Source: Ralstonia sp. SET104
Lineage (GTDB): Bacteria > Pseudomonadota > Gammaproteobacteria > Burkholderiales > Burkholderiaceae
Direction of reading: 5' to 3'
Assembly (NCBI RefSeq): GCF_003851545.1
Contig: NZ_BHVX01000001.1
Span: 496,001 to 560,000 of the forward strand
DNA length: 64,000 nucleotides
Part shown: positions 22,315-57,950 of the stretch, one piece after another
How the letters are laid out: each line of letters starts with the position of its first letter
Position numbering within the stretch: the stretch's first letter is position 1
Notes under the pieces: generated by a model
The model's database searches: none
What the model saw: the letters and a program-made list of their open reading frames with translations, nothing else
What the model was told of the DNA's origin: nothing
Program-made: the position numbers and the translations under genes

Positions 22315-22799
22315 CGCGCACCTCCGCACGCGGCGTGGCGATCGATACAAGGCGGGGAGGGGAAATGCGCGGAGCGGCGTCCGCAAGCGGCGGGAACAGC
22401 GTGAATCAGTAATGCCATTGTCTTGCCCTCTAACTGGTTGAGTCGGGGGAGCCGCCCACCGGCAGGGGTGGGCGGGCACACGGCAAGGTCTGCAATACCG
22501 ATCAGAAACACCAAAGAACCGGCAGGGCCGAAGCCCTCCCTGCCGGGCCCGCCCATAGGGACGAACGACGGCGCGCGAGGGCTATAACGGCACTCACGGG
22601 TATTTCTGATGTCGGGATTGCAGGCCCGGCTGCGCTTTTTTTGCGCAAGCGGGGCAGAGTCTACCGGGCGCCCGGCAACGCGGGCAAGTTGGGGTTTGTG
22701 GCGGTCTGCGACTCAGACAGCATCCGCCGAGTCAAAAACGCCGATGGTCGAGTTCAAAACCCCACCCGCCAAGTCCACACCCTCGATCACGAGTCAAAA
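22315..22799. other. Spacer with hairpins, no gene recognised
   Basis: No frame here has a ribosome site plus plausible protein. CCGGCAGGG (22519-22527) and CCCTGCCGG (22538-22546) form a perfect 9-bp hairpin without a T-run. At 22720-22800 a degenerate motif GAGTyAAAAnC recurs three times at irregular spacing, just ahead of the minus-strand terminator. Confidence 0.4.
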
Positions 22800-52790: not shown

Positions 52791-53204
52791 ATGTTCCACC
52801 GCCGTTGGCTTTTCCTCGTCTGGCTTGCGATCGTACTGAACGTACTGTCGCCGGTGCTCGCTGCCGCGCGCGCGGCAGCCACGGGCACGCTTGCCATCGA
52901 ACTGTGCAGCGCAACGGCACGGCATGACGGAACAGCGGGCAGGACCGTCCGGATTGCCGTTGACCTGCAAGGCAATGGCTCCGCCGATGGGTCGGCAGCC
53001 CACCACAGCGTGGCGCACTGCCTGTATTGCCCGGGGTTTGCTGCCGGGTTTGCGTTGGCATCCGTGCCGGCGCTGGATGTGCCTTCCGCCCATTTCGTCT
53101 ATCGCGTACGGCAGCCGGCCAGCCCGGCGCCCGTGTACGCGCGCAGCGCGCTGCGTGTGGCCGAGTCGCGCGCGCCGCCTGTGTCTCCGACGTTGTCGAT
53201 CTGA
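52791..53204 (+). CDS. DUF2946 protein, exported
   Basis: It has 137 residues. Signal peptide FLVWLAIVLNVLSPVLAAARA. The DUF2946 hallmarks are IELCSATARHDG and a C-terminal HCLYCPG (HCxYC) motif, likely metal-binding, with a further His cluster (AAHHSVAHC). First gene of the TonB operon. DUF2946 proteins are often found beside copper-linked outer-membrane receptors, which is the basis for suspecting a metal role here. Confidence 0.8.
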   Translation: MFHRRWLFLVWLAIVLNVLSPVLAAARAAATGTLAIELCSATARHDGTAGRTVRIAVDLQGNGSADGSAAHHSVAHCLYCPGFAAGFALASVPALDVPSAHFVYRVRQPASPAPVYARSALRVAESRAPPVSPTLSI

Positions 53205-53288
53205 CGCGCCTGCGGGAGTAAGTCTCGCGGCGCCTTCGCGCTGGGCTGCAGTTGCGGCCCGCGCCATCGCAATCCGGAGACCTTTCCG

Positions 53289-55601
53289 ATGTCATCCCAC
53301 AAGCGCACAGGGGCCGCCTGCCCCAGGCGCACGCTGGTGTGCTGCGCGGTGCTCGCGTTGAGCACGGCGGCACCGCTGTCTGCCTTCGCCGCTGACGATG
53401 CGGCACCCATGCCCGTCACCCAGGAACTCGCGCCCACCGTGGTGCGCGCCAGCGCCAACCCCACGCCGTTCGCCCGCAACACGCCCGCCGTTGTGCAAAG
53501 CGTGACGGCCGACCAACTTGCCGACCGCAACGTCGTCACCACCGAAGACGCGGTCAAATACCAACCGAACGTGATGGTGCGCCGCCGTTTCATTGGCGAC
53601 CGCAACTCCATCTTTGCCGGCCGCGACTTCAACGAGATCCAGAGCGCGCGCGGCCTGCTGTATGCCGATGGCATCCTGCTCTCGAATTTGCTCGGTTCCA
53701 GCTACAGCTATCCGCCGCGCTGGTCGATGGTCGGGCCGGATGATCTGGCGCGCGTCGATATCCTGTACGGGCCGTTCTCGGCGCTGCTGCCGGGCAACTC
53801 GATGGGCACGACCATCGCGATGACGCTGCGCCGCCCCGAGAAATTCGAGGCCGCCGCGCAGACACAACTGATGCGCCAGCATTACAACGATGCGTATGGC
53901 TTCTCGCGCAACGTCACCGGCAACCACGAGAGCGCATCGCTGGGCGACCGCATCGGCAAGTTCTGGTATGCGCTGTCGGTCGACCGGCTGGAGAACGACA
54001 GCCAGCCGATGCAATATGCCACGCCCAATTCGAAGTTCACGGCCGGTGGTACGCCGGTACCGGTGACGGGCGCGCGGCAAGATCTCGGCCTCAACGGCCA
54101 GCCGCGCGTGATTCTCGGCCCGCAGATGCTGGAGCGCACCCAGCAACTGCAGGAAACGCTACGCCTGGGCTATATCTTCAGCGACAGCCTGGAGGCGTCG
54201 CTCACACTGGGGCATTGGGAAAACCATTTCGCCGATCAGGCGGTCAGCTTCCTTCGCGATGCTGCCGGCAACGTTGTCACGGGCGGCAATGTGCTGATCA
54301 ACGGCACGCCCTACACGATTGCCCAAAATGCCTTCGCCCCACAGAACGGCGATCAGGAAAACTGGCTCTACGGCGTGGGCGTCAGGGCCGCGGTCGGAGG
54401 CTGGAAGATTGACACCAACGCTTCGGCCTACAACGTCACGCGCGACATTTTGCGTGCATCCAACACGGCCGCCGGCAGTGGCCCGGGCACCGTGTTCTAC
54501 GGCGATGGCACGGGCTGGTCCAACTTCGATATCAAGGCAACGTCGCCCACGGTGTCCGGCCACACGTTCACGACCGGTTACCACTACGACCAGTACCACC
54601 TGCGCAACCAGACCTTCAATGCCACAGACTGGGCGGCGCAAACCCTTTCCACACTCAAATCCAGCTACCAGGGCGACACGCAAACACAAGCCGTCTTCCT
54701 GCAGGACGCCTGGGCCTTTGCGCCGCGCTGGCTGGCAACGCTGGGCCTGCGCTATGAGAGCTGGCGGGCTTACAACGGCCAGCTTGGCAACAACAGCAGC
54801 ACGCTCGGTTACGCCAGCCGCACCGAAGACGCGTTCAGCCCCAAGGCGGCAATCCAATGGCAGGCCACGCGGGATACGTTGCTGCGCTTGTCATACGGCC
54901 GTGCGGTGCGCTTCCCCACCGTGGCAGAGTTGTTCCAGGGCACGATCAGCGGCAACACCATCGTCAACAACGATCCGCACCTCAAGCCGGAGCGCGCCAA
55001 TGATCTCGACTTCACCGTCGAGCAGGCTGTGCCGTACGGCGTGCTGCGCACCAGCCTGTTCCAGAGCGACGTGCGTGACAGCATTTACACGCAGACGAAC
55101 ATCACCGTTACGCCCAACGTGACGAACGTGCAGAACGTGGACCGCGTGCGCACGCGCGGCATTGAACTGGCGTATTCCGGGCAGGACGTTTTGCAAGATG
55201 CTGGTGTGCGCGGTGTGGATGTCGAGGCCAACGTTGCCTTGACGCAATCGAAAACGCTGGCCGACGCCGCCAACCCCAACTACGTCGACAAGACCTGGCC
55301 GCGCATGCCGCGCGTGCGCGCCAACCTGTTTGCCAGTTGGCACGCTACGCAGGATTGGACGGTGGGCGCGGGTGTGCGCTATTCCGGTCGGCAATACGGC
55401 ACGCTCGACAACACGGATGTGCTGCCCAACGTCTACGGTGGCACCAGCAGCTTTGTCACCGTGGATCTGAAAGCGAGCTATCGCATCGACAAGCACGTCA
55501 CGCTGGCGCTGGGGGTCGATAACCTGACCGATCGGCGGTACTTCGTGTACCACCCGTATCCGTCGCGCACTTTCTATGGACAACTGAAATGGCGTCTGTA
55601 A
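53289..55601 (+). CDS. TonB-dependent outer-membrane receptor
   Basis: It has 770 residues. Signal peptide ending SAFAADDA; a TonB-box-like start (ELAPTVVRA); plug domain with TEDAVKYQPNVMVRRRF and VDILYGPFSALLPGNSMG; 22-strand barrel ending with the aromatic LKWRL. Barrel-closing signature VDNLTDRRYFVYHPYPSRTF. It has no siderophore-synthesis or Fur-box context. Operon mates carry His/Cys metal motifs, so metal (perhaps copper) import is the favoured reading. Confidence 0.92.
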   Translation: MSSHKRTGAACPRRTLVCCAVLALSTAAPLSAFAADDAAPMPVTQELAPTVVRASANPTPFARNTPAVVQSVTADQLADRNVVTTEDAVKYQPNVMVRRRFIGDRNSIFAGRDFNEIQSARGLLYADGILLSNLLGSSYSYPPRWSMVGPDDLARVDILYGPFSALLPGNSMGTTIAMTLRRPEKFEAAAQTQLMRQHYNDAYGFSRNVTGNHESASLGDRIGKFWYALSVDRLENDSQPMQYATPNSKFTAGGTPVPVTGARQDLGLNGQPRVILGPQMLERTQQLQETLRLGYIFSDSLEASLTLGHWENHFADQAVSFLRDAAGNVVTGGNVLINGTPYTIAQNAFAPQNGDQENWLYGVGVRAAVGGWKIDTNASAYNVTRDILRASNTAAGSGPGTVFYGDGTGWSNFDIKATSPTVSGHTFTTGYHYDQYHLRNQTFNATDWAAQTLSTLKSSYQGDTQTQAVFLQDAWAFAPRWLATLGLRYESWRAYNGQLGNNSSTLGYASRTEDAFSPKAAIQWQATRDTLLRLSYGRAVRFPTVAELFQGTISGNTIVNNDPHLKPERANDLDFTVEQAVPYGVLRTSLFQSDVRDSIYTQTNITVTPNVTNVQNVDRVRTRGIELAYSGQDVLQDAGVRGVDVEANVALTQSKTLADAANPNYVDKTWPRMPRVRANLFASWHATQDWTVGAGVRYSGRQYGTLDNTDVLPNVYGGTSSFVTVDLKASYRIDKHVTLALGVDNLTDRRYFVYHPYPSRTFYGQLKWRL

Positions 55602-56863
55602 TGCACTCGATTCCTCGGTGGATAGCCGGTGCGTTGCTGGCCTTGGCCGCAACGTTGAGCGCAGCGCACGAAGGCCACGATCATGGCGCCATGGCGGGCA
55701 AAGCTGCCGCCCAGCCACAACGCGCGCAGCTCGCCACGACAGCCGCGTTCGACAAAGCAGGGCGTTTGTGGGTGACGTGGGCCGAAGGGCAGCACGTGGT
55801 GGTTGCCTCGTCCGACGATCTTGGCAAGACGCTCTCCAAGCCGCAGCGGGTGAACCCGCAACCCGAGCCGGTCTACACCGACGGCGAGAACCGCCCGAAA
55901 ATCGTCGCCAGCCCGGACGGCGCGCTGTACATCAGTTGGTCGCGGCCGCTCGATGCGCCATACACGGGTTTCGTGCGGTTTTCGCGCTCGCTTGACGGCG
56001 GCAAGACGTGGGCCGCGCCGGTGACTGTCCATGACGACCGCCAGCCGATCACGCACCGCTTCGATTCGATTGCTGTGGACAGCGCAGGCCGCATCTTCGT
56101 CACGTGGATCGACAAGCGCGACCTGCTGCGCGCGCAGGCGGCCAAACAGCCGTATGACGGCGCAGCGCTCTACTACACCGTATCGACCGACCGCGGTGCT
56201 ACCTTCGCGCCCGAGCGCAAGGTCATTGACCAGACTTGTGAGTGCTGCCGCATCGCACTTGCCCCCGACGCTGACGGCCACATGCTCGCGCTGTGGCGCA
56301 ACGTGTTTGCGGGGCAGATTCGTGATCACGCATTGGCGACTTTGCCGATCGATAGCACGCCGCTTGCCGTCACGCGCGCGACGTTTTCGGAGTGGCGCGT
56401 TGATGCGTGTCCGCACCATGGCCCCGCGCTGGCTGTGACGGCCGACGGCGTGCGGCACATGGCGTGGTTCTCGGTGCTGCAGGACAAGCCCGGCCTGTTC
56501 TACAGCCGACTCTCGGCCGATGGCAAACCGATCGGCGGCGCATGGGCCTTTGCGGGCTCTGCACAAGCCGGCACGCAGGCAGCGCATCCGGCGCTGCTGG
56601 CGGCCGGCGGCGCGCTGTGGCTGGCGTGGAAGCAGTTTGCCGACGATCGCATGCAGATCCTGCTGCGTAAATCGACCGACGGCGGCGCGCACTGGACGGC
56701 CCCGGTCAGCCTGGCGAGCACGGAGGGCGGCAATGACCACCCGCAACTGCTCGCGCGCGATGGCCATGTCTACCTGTCGTGGCGCACGCAGGCAGAGGGC
56801 TATCGGTTCATTGACGTGACCGGCGCTGTTCCGGCCAACGCAACACTGGAGGCATCGCAATGA
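55601..56863 (+). CDS. BNR/sialidase-fold protein with His/Cys metal motifs
   Basis: It has 420 residues from ATG 55601, which overlaps the receptor stop (TAATG); ATG 55589 is an alternative. Signal peptide, then HEGHDHG right at the mature N-terminus. Several Asp-box-like motifs (SRSLDGGKTWAAP, STDRGATFAPE, STDGGAHWTAP) indicate a six-bladed propeller. The conserved TCECCRIAL (about 211-219) and DACPHHGPAL (about 268-277) are probable metal ligands. Sialidase activity is unlikely; a periplasmic metal-binding partner of the receptor is inferred. Confidence 0.75.
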   Translation: MHSIPRWIAGALLALAATLSAAHEGHDHGAMAGKAAAQPQRAQLATTAAFDKAGRLWVTWAEGQHVVVASSDDLGKTLSKPQRVNPQPEPVYTDGENRPKIVASPDGALYISWSRPLDAPYTGFVRFSRSLDGGKTWAAPVTVHDDRQPITHRFDSIAVDSAGRIFVTWIDKRDLLRAQAAKQPYDGAALYYTVSTDRGATFAPERKVIDQTCECCRIALAPDADGHMLALWRNVFAGQIRDHALATLPIDSTPLAVTRATFSEWRVDACPHHGPALAVTADGVRHMAWFSVLQDKPGLFYSRLSADGKPIGGAWAFAGSAQAGTQAAHPALLAAGGALWLAWKQFADDRMQILLRKSTDGGAHWTAPVSLASTEGGNDHPQLLARDGHVYLSWRTQAEGYRFIDVTGAVPANATLEASQ

Positions 56864-57366
56864 ACATTCGATGGAAGTCGCTGGCGATGGGTGTGGCGCT
56901 GTCTGCCGCCGCCTTCGCTGCGCAGGCGGCCGGGGTACTGCCGTTCCAGCCGTTGCATGCCCGCGATGTGCCGGCGCTGCTGCAGACACAGCATGCGCGC
57001 CCGCTCATCGTCGAGATCTGGTCGCTGGAATGCAGCTACTGCCGAGAGAACATCGCGCGCATTGCGCAGTGGCGTCGCACTGTCAGGCAGAACGTGGATG
57101 TGGTGATGGTGTCGATGGACGGCCCCGACCAAGCCGAGATGCTGAACCGCGCGCTGGCGCCACTGGCGCGCGACAGCAAGATTGGGCTTGCGCGCGTGCC
57201 GCAGTACGCCAATGCCGAAGACATGCCGGAGCGCCTGCGCGCCGCGCTCGACCCCGGCTGGCAGGGCGAGATGCCGCGCACGATCATCTTGCGCCCCGAC
57301 GGCAGTCGCCATGCATCGAGCGGTTTGCTGACGCCGCAGACGCTGGATGCAGCGCTCAAGGATTAG
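56860..57366 (+). CDS. Thioredoxin-like periplasmic protein (TlpA type)
   Basis: It has 168 residues. Signal peptide ending FAAQAAG; thioredoxin fold with active-site C58SYC61 in VEIWSLECSYCRENI, and the cis-Pro region at EMPRTIILRPDG. It overlaps the previous gene by 4 bp (ATGA). Last gene of the operon. It would act as thiol reductase or metallochaperone for the Cys-rich partner (inference). Confidence 0.85.
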   Translation: MNIRWKSLAMGVALSAAAFAAQAAGVLPFQPLHARDVPALLQTQHARPLIVEIWSLECSYCRENIARIAQWRRTVRQNVDVVMVSMDGPDQAEMLNRALAPLARDSKIGLARVPQYANAEDMPERLRAALDPGWQGEMPRTIILRPDGSRHASSGLLTPQTLDAALKD

Positions 57367-57420
57367 CGTTGGCTTACGCGCGGCGCTGCATACATTCCGA
57401 GTATGAACAGTCCTTAAAAA

Positions 57421-57453
57421 ACGATGCGGAAACGACGCGGAAACGATGCAGAC
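57421..57453. repeat. Phased 11-bp repeats upstream of the small RNA
   Basis: ACGATGCGGAA, ACGACGCGGAA and ACGATGCAGAC follow one another with an exact 11-bp period, 41-73 bp upstream of the TATAAT at 57494. One helical turn per unit suits an activator that binds one face of the DNA. Confidence 0.7.
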
Positions 57454-57493
57454 CCCCCTCGTTGTTGGGGTATGTCGGGAGGCGGGCAATTTT

Positions 57494-57499
57494 TATAAT
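57494..57499 (+). promoter_or_regulatory. -10 element of the candidate small RNA
   Basis: A perfect TATAAT preceded by TTT. No -35 hexamer is found at 16-18 nt. Transcription would start at about 57506, the first base of stem 1. Confidence 0.65.
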
Positions 57500-57505
57500 G
57501 GCGAC

Positions 57506-57617
57506 GCTTTGTGAATTCCGGCGCATTGCTCGTTCACAAAGCACACCCGACCATCTTTCGTCGTCAAAGGCTGAAGATGTTAAGCCCGCCCGCCCCCCGG
57601 CCCGCGGGCTTTTTCTT
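57506..57617 (+). ncRNA. Candidate novel structured small RNA, about 110 nt
   Basis: Three stems in a row. Stem 1 is GCTTTGTGAA (57506-57515) with TTCACAAAGC (57533-57542), 10 perfect pairs. Stem 2 is CATCTT (57552-57557) with AAGATG (57574-57579). Stem 3, the terminator, is AAGCCCGC (57582-57589) with GCGGGCTT (57604-57611), followed by TTTCTTT. The terminator loop (57590-57603) is all C and G, mainly C, suited to pairing with G-rich ribosome sites. A consensus -10 lies 7 nt upstream of stem 1. I match it to no known family. Confidence 0.65.
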
Positions 57618-57671
57618 TGCCTCGCGCTTGTCCAAGCTGGCCCGCATCGCGGGGCGGATGGTCGCTGGCTT

Positions 57672-57950
57672 TCAGCGCGTTGTCGTTTGCGTTGAAGTGG
57701 GGTATGCCGCAGACGGTCGCTGCGTCTCGTCAGATACCGCGCCCAAGCTGACAGCCATTGCGGCCAGCAGAACCGCAACGCCTCGCGCGACGTAAAACAC
57801 CGTTTGTGCGCCGGCGATTTCCGGCTCACGAGATCCGGCTTGAGCAGCTTGGGTGTGCCAGACACTGCGCGCCGTGTGGCGCGGCACCGCATCGCGATAG
57901 GCGCGCGGCGCGCGGTGTGTCGGATGCGGCTGCATGGGCGGGTGAGACAT
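57672..57950 (-). CDS. Small single-helix membrane protein
   Basis: It has 92 residues from ATG 57950, with GAGGAGG 9 nt upstream; the frame continues back into the exporter gene as a shadow. A basic His/Arg/Pro-rich N-terminus is followed by one hydrophobic helix (VFYVARGVAVLLAAMAVSLG) and a polar tail. It lies 20 bp after the TSUP exporter gene and is co-directional with it. Unknown function. Confidence 0.6.
   Translation of the reverse strand: MSHPPMQPHPTHRAPRAYRDAVPRHTARSVWHTQAAQAGSREPEIAGAQTVFYVARGVAVLLAAMAVSLGAVSDETQRPSAAYPTSTQTTTR

Follow-up and report, generated by a model that had tools for sequence, protein, structure and literature searches.

A conserved structured small RNA gene beside a putative copper-uptake operon in Ralstonia

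The 64-kb window, that is, the whole stretch of Ralstonia DNA analysed here, contains a CruR-like copper operon of four genes, which lies upstream of the RNA described below.

52791..57366, plus strand: CruR-like copper operon
52791-53204, plus strand: DUF2946 protein with CLYC and RAPP motifs
53289-55601, plus strand: TonB receptor
55589-56863, plus strand: BNR/sialidase-like gene
56860-57366, plus strand: TlpA-like gene (the AhpC/TSA match is just below the Pfam cut-off, and 'TlpA-like' is our own label)

In the DUF2946 protein, the CLYC motif (residues 77-80) is separated from the RAPP motif (residues 127-130) by 46 residues. CruR, encoded by an upstream reading frame in the bfrG operon of Bordetella, is described as sensing copper, and its CXXC and RAPP motifs are 45 residues apart (PMC9426467). 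The operon in the window resembles the B. pertussis CruR (DUF2946)-bfrG operon in that a CXXC/RAPP uORF protein accompanies a TonB receptor, but it has the sialidase-like and TlpA-like genes in place of the PepSY_TM gene (PMC9426467). Control of the B. pertussis operon by the uORF and Rho is described, and no sRNA is described for it in the portion of that paper available to us (PMC9426467). Copper-repressed copper uptake is the likely function of 52791-57366.

On the other side of the RNA, a small, poorly conserved ORF (57672-57944, minus strand; the start at 57944 is our choice) is convergent with it. This ORF is matched in 13 of the 15 relatives at 43-63% identity and has no match in L015 and L016. 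Elsewhere in the window, positions 22464-22560 on the minus strand match the Rfam C4 antisense RNA at 55.3 bits, which points to a phage or satellite element of the P4/P1 type.

The region 57506-57618 on the plus strand is a genuine intergenic RNA gene. The gene and the elements that precede it are as follows.

57419..57451, plus strand: three tandem 11-bp repeats, AAACGAYGCRG, real and not conserved in relatives
57452..57474, plus strand: conserved promoter box ACCCCCCTCGTTGTTGGGGTATG, putative activator site (17 of 23 columns invariant, 16 genomes)
57490..57502, plus strand: TTTTTATAATGGC block with the -10 hexamer TATAAT at 57494-57499 and no -35 element (13 of 13 columns invariant, 16 genomes)
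57506..57618, plus strand: structured small RNA, inferred transcript of ~113 nt (start placed from the -10 element and the edge of conservation)
57506..57542, plus strand: stem-loop 1, 11 pairs, with a small inner hairpin within the loop
57543..57551, plus strand: linker ACACCCGAC, single-stranded and invariant (unpaired in the fold; identity 1.000)
57552..57579, plus strand: stem-loop 2, 10 pairs (two pair-preserving changes in relative L015)
57582..57618, plus strand: intrinsic terminator, with an 8-pair stem, a 14-nt C/G loop and a T-rich tail

The RNA opens at its 5' end with an 11-pair hairpin, which a linker of 9 unpaired nucleotides separates from a second hairpin; the terminator, the loop of which is C-rich, comes last. 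Stem 1 is formed by GCTTTGTGAA and TTCACAAAGC (57506-57515 and 57533-57542) and is extended by an eleventh, U-G pair. The initial annotation reported 10 perfect pairs starting 7 nt after the -10 element, and re-reading of the sequence agrees with it. The terminator stem pairs AAGCCCGC with GCGGGCTT around the 14-nt loop CCGCCCCCCGGCCC (11 C and 3 G) and is followed by TTTTTCTTT; the earlier description of three successive stems ending in a terminator, with a 14-nt loop that is all C/G and mostly C, is thus correct. Since it allows loops of 8 at most, a simple terminator scan misses this terminator. The whole RNA folds at -47.6 kcal/mol, compared with a shuffle mean of -28.0 (z = -6.25). Besides the terminator, there are two further stems, each with a z below -4; folded together without the terminator, they give a z of -4.71, and 0 of 200 shuffles are equally good.

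The promoter region contains a perfect -10 hexamer. At spacers of 14-20, the match to TTGACA is 3 of 6 positions or fewer, and the promoter scan finds no sigma-70 pair at the RNA gene. The hexamer check and the scan both support the earlier observation of a perfect TATAAT without a -35 element. By count, TATAAT is unremarkable in the 64-kb window (2 found vs 1.6 expected), and the hexamer here carries weight because it is invariant in 16 of 16 genomes. The dinucleotide 57503-57504, positioned between the invariant -10 block and the conserved start of the RNA, is variable.

Phased 11-bp repeats 41-73 bp upstream had been proposed as the site of a dedicated activator. Three repeat units, AAACGATGCGG, AAACGACGCGG, and AAACGATGCAG, are indeed present, 43-75 bp upstream of the -10 element, and the triple is unique in the 64-kb window (successive units identical at 9 or more of 11 positions). 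However, relatives keep at most one unit-like stretch, and the repeats are therefore rejected as the activator site. An activator-type promoter is retained from the earlier proposal, since it is conserved in relatives, with the 23-bp box conserved instead of the repeats.

The box is an inverted repeat, ACCCC-N10-GGGGT (fuller pattern, ACCCC-N10-GGGGTATG), located between the repeats and the -10 element. Its centre is at about -44, ~44 bp before the inferred start, and we infer that, without a -35 element, this is where a class-II-type activator would bind. In a search of the 16 genomes with a mismatch limit of 3, 15 have one site per genome, at the RNA promoter (14 exact and 1 with one mismatch), and the reversed-pattern control gives 0 matches. 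In the 16th genome (G144/L017), the box is altered: the C run and GGGG lie two bases closer together. A wider scan of this genome with ACCCC-N10-GGGGTATG finds one other exact match besides the RNA promoter. This match (L068 1501-1523; G000:C1:274576-274598) lies between a lipoprotein-like ORF and a 316-aa ORF of unknown function, 170 bp before the latter. At up to 2 mismatches, the pattern occurs 44 times in this genome vs 46 times for the control. Since the box is not enriched over the control, no regulon is drawn.

The RNA is present as one copy per genome in all 16 Ralstonia genomes examined, our own included, and falls into six haplotypes. Across the 16 genomes, 109 of 114 alignment columns are invariant, in stems and loops alike. 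The mean pairwise identity is 0.989 for the RNA vs 0.571 upstream of the box and 0.600 downstream; each gap is scored as a difference, and the alignment of the flanks is poor. The corresponding values within the genus are 0.981 for 6S RNA and 0.997 for SRP RNA (15 genomes each, with one genome giving no match), so that the RNA exceeds the former and approaches the latter. For the neighbouring TauE gene, the mean at third codon positions is 0.742 (15 sequences, one partial). The invariance of 109 of 114 columns, set against the diverged flanks and the TauE third positions, indicates strong purifying selection on the RNA, which, judged by these identities, is constrained like a housekeeping RNA. 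The initial annotation proposed a new structured small RNA with a terminator; conservation in 16 of 16 genomes of the genus between diverged flanks substantiates that proposal.

The few changes within stems preserve pairing. Over the six haplotypes, 26 of the 29 base pairs are constant; in the other three, one side changes, and the switch is always between U-A and U-G. All 174 pair cells (29 pairs, six haplotypes) are paired, whereas the paired share falls to 34-52% when partners are slid by 1-3 columns; the structure was derived from the same sequences, and the pair test therefore favours itself. The pair-shuffling control is uninformative (500 of 500 shuffles equal). No two-sided covariation is found among the 29 pairs in the six haplotypes because the RNA hardly varies. 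The pair-preserving changes are thus consistent with the fold, yet they are not two-sided covariation. Missing compensatory changes together with unconserved stems had been named in advance as refuting the RNA: compensatory changes are absent, but the stems are conserved, and the RNA is not refuted on this point. In relative L016, a 1-nt deletion shortens the inner loop of hairpin 1, and the fold is kept.

Outside the genus, no convincing homologue is found by sequence searches. None of the 4227 families of Rfam 15 reaches its gathering score in the RNA region, where sub-threshold matches score 18, 17.6, 13.6, and 13 bits. This Rfam search, suggested in the initial annotation, is consistent with a new RNA. 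In a DNA search of 299 family genomes, the matches outside the genus are just terminator-sized (9 places in 8 genomes). The covariance model R1, searched against 398 family genomes with stricter filters and up to 9 candidates scored per genome, recovers the 16 Ralstonia genomes at 141-147 bits and 36 weaker matches, the best at 39.6 bits; one of the latter is a second place in a Ralstonia genome. For the 14 of 36 weaker matches inspected, no neighbour gene of the window is found within 1.5 kb. A linker-stem pattern searched in 399 order genomes returns our own genome and one match with 3 mismatches, compared with one match for the reversed control, and a plasmid search for the RNA gives no match. 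In three genomes of another genus (g3), the loci L055, L057, and L058 (match at ~1501-1593) contain a different three-stem RNA-like element, itself a candidate sRNA, composed of GTCATGAAGC..GCTTCATGAC, an ACAC linker, a hairpin, and a terminator. It is preceded by TTGACCCAGGTCAA, which is presumably an FNR-like box.

Within the text covered by our literature searches, there is no description of the RNA, no paper with its searched sequence strings, and no paper devoted to small RNAs of Ralstonia. The double-hairpin sRNAs ncS03, ncS05, ncS27, and ncS62 are associated in the literature with Bordetella S17 and the betaproteobacterial toxic sRNA family RF02278 (PMC11722255, PMC5688073). Like these, as they are described, our RNA is a short betaproteobacterial hairpin sRNA that exposes a pyrimidine-rich stretch and ends in an intrinsic terminator (PMC11722255, PMC5688073). 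However, it scores 13.6 bits against the 50-bit gathering score of RF02278, which rules out membership. Moreover, it is found in one genus, unlike S17, the sites of which are reported to be conserved across Betaproteobacteria (PMC11722255). NcS25 of Burkholderia cenocepacia is described as an 84-nt conserved intergenic sRNA that pairs with a Shine-Dalgarno sequence (PMC10117139). By that description it resembles our RNA in being a conserved intergenic sRNA in conserved synteny, but its synteny is with a porin gene and its range is Burkholderia, Paraburkholderia, and Pandoraea; the main text, in the portion available, does not mention Ralstonia for it (PMC10117139). In the copper transcriptome of C. 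metallidurans, 35 likely sRNAs are reported (PMC7563307). Judged against the Rfam families and the text covered by our literature searches, our verdict is that the RNA is a new family of a known kind.

Very probably, the locus is a real, independent small RNA gene. Its sequence points to a conserved promoter unit, a three-stem fold, an intrinsic terminator, purifying selection, and the lack of a conserved frame. We give a probability of about 0.6 to the whole reading, namely, that the gene would encode a trans-acting, activator-controlled, non-coding sRNA of ~113 nt specific to Ralstonia. According to this proposal, a dedicated activator would bind the 23-bp box (centre about -44), replacing a -35 element, and would recruit the sigma-70 polymerase to the perfect -10 element. 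The 5' hairpin and the U-rich 3' end would keep the RNA stable, probably together with Hfq. Distant mRNAs would be regulated by base-pairing with exposed stretches of the RNA, above all with the invariant linker ACACCCGAC, our candidate pairing region. Features of trans-encoded sRNAs are predicted at the locus: an own promoter, an intrinsic terminator, and a non-coding intergenic transcript. A conserved structure with an accessible stretch is found as well, the pair-preserving changes being single-sided. The RNA is probably of the Hfq type; of the features of that type, a U-rich 3' end is present.

The pairing mechanism has to be weighed against a protein-binding or structural role, as in 6S RNA or a protein-titrating RNA, in which the whole fold rather than a seed is selected. 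Conservation extends over the entire length of the RNA, beyond the unpaired seeds, which is more than pairing alone needs and counts against pairing. Stems and loops are equally invariant, at a level above 6S RNA and near SRP RNA, as a protein-binding role would predict, and complementarity has so far given no clear mRNA targets. In 36 tests of four exposed RNA segments against nine neighbouring start regions, no duplex beats shuffles, and the lowest p is 0.08. The linker has 141 complements no more than 14 nt away from an ATG, spread over all 16 genomes and including four on the antisense strand of the RNA itself; the reversed control has 48. The 14 sites inspected, including all 8 distinct ones in this genome, are not at an evident start of a long gene; two of them, L136 and L137, open short frames (45 and 55 codons) of doubtful standing. 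The excess may come from codon usage, and targets may lie among the remaining sites. The linker complement GTCGGGTGT near ATG is about threefold over the reversed pattern, and GTCGGGTGTCATG recurs in many genomes.

The initial annotation suggested the C-rich terminator loop as a seed that pairs with ribosome sites. This suggestion has no support in this genome, where exact complements of the loop 2-12 nt from an ATG number 0, and the loop is predicted to fold on itself. Over the genus, loop complements near ATG occur at 31 places in 12 of 16 genomes vs 9 for the reversed control, and one complement string, variable at a single base, is shared by 8 genomes. Against a protein-binding role, the RNA matches neither 6S RNA, SRP RNA nor any other Rfam family, and no repeated protein-binding motif is seen by eye in its sequence. 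We consider such a role rather unlikely as the explanation, and prefer the trans-acting sRNA.

It is also unlikely, in our judgement, that the RNA is mainly a 3'-UTR-derived sRNA that doubles as the terminator of the copper operon. In that case, RNase E would cut readthrough transcripts in the A/T-rich TTTTTATAAT, and the level of the RNA would thereby follow the CruR-controlled operon. The A/U-rich block is invariant, and the stretch that separates the TlpA-like gene from the RNA in the window has no terminator in the scan with loops of up to 8, which also misses the terminator of the RNA itself. The spacing fits such an origin in part: in 10 of 15 relatives, just 69-71 nt lie between the end of the TlpA-like gene and the RNA, compared with 139 nt in the window. 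For L016 and L017, the end of the TlpA-like match is some 140 and 190 nt upstream of the RNA. In 15 of 15 relatives the RNA follows the sialidase-like and TlpA-like genes, and all four genes are seen in order in 10 of 10 long loci.

However, the perfect -10 element is positioned 7 nt before the start of the RNA, with the variable dinucleotide 57503-57504 in between, and the conserved one-site box occupies the -35 position. In addition, an extra gene of 234 codons splits the operon from the RNA in 3 of 15 relatives (total gap, 896-932 nt), and the box and the -10 element stay with the RNA. The inserted gene starts with MSVLNKVESGYLQLM and is found in L013, L033 (= L014), and L034 (= L012). In R. 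soli, one of the relatives, the 5 kb examined contain neither of the downstream genes TauE and LysR. The box, the -10 element, and the RNA are kept together in all relatives despite the insertion or the missing downstream neighbours, which speaks for an independent gene rather than a processed 3' UTR. The sequence thus favours an own promoter over processing from the upstream mRNA.

That the RNA is a mere operon terminator with chance upstream stems is close to refuted: the intrinsic terminator is good, and an operon would presumably need one, but two more stems have a z below -4 each, and near-invariance extends over 114 nt plus the promoter. A small protein translated from the GTG at 57511 is very unlikely, given that the frame, though open through the terminator in 5 of 6 haplotypes, is shifted by the 1-nt deletion in L016 with the RNA fold intact, that a distance of 5 nt between the inferred start and the GTG leaves no room for a ribosome site, and that just 1 of 4 variable substitution columns is a third codon position.

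The trans-acting sRNA, our preferred reading, is not thereby tied to copper. From its place after the copper-uptake operon, a link to metals is possible. Of 398 family genomes, 123 have the sialidase-like gene of the operon, and 107 of these 123 lie outside Ralstonia. We examined operon loci in 26 of the 107 (14 returned loci and 12 downstream stretches). A TlpA-like match linked to the sialidase-like gene is found in 26 of 26, and the RNA in 0 of 26 (best 12.8 bits, E 0.36, filters off). On these sequences, the operon appears older than the RNA. Therefore, synteny within Ralstonia is weak evidence for a role in copper. Membership of the metal response, as put forward in the initial annotation, draws on synteny in 16 of 16 genomes of the genus, yet the 26 loci elsewhere are without the RNA, and the duplexes with the nine neighbouring genes are no better than shuffled controls; such membership is not supported.

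A doubtful scenario is that a genus-specific RNA was born beside an older copper-uptake operon in Ralstonia and became fixed at the constraint of a housekeeping RNA, under a promoter box with one site per genome. Since selection covers the entire fold, the RNA may act by protein binding rather than by a seed. Its single-copy presence in 16 of 16 genomes and its housekeeping-level constraint suggest that loss of the RNA would show a phenotype. The one-site promoter box could serve as bait for the regulator of the RNA, and the RNA itself offers an example in which to study how a new RNA under high constraint emerges within one genus.
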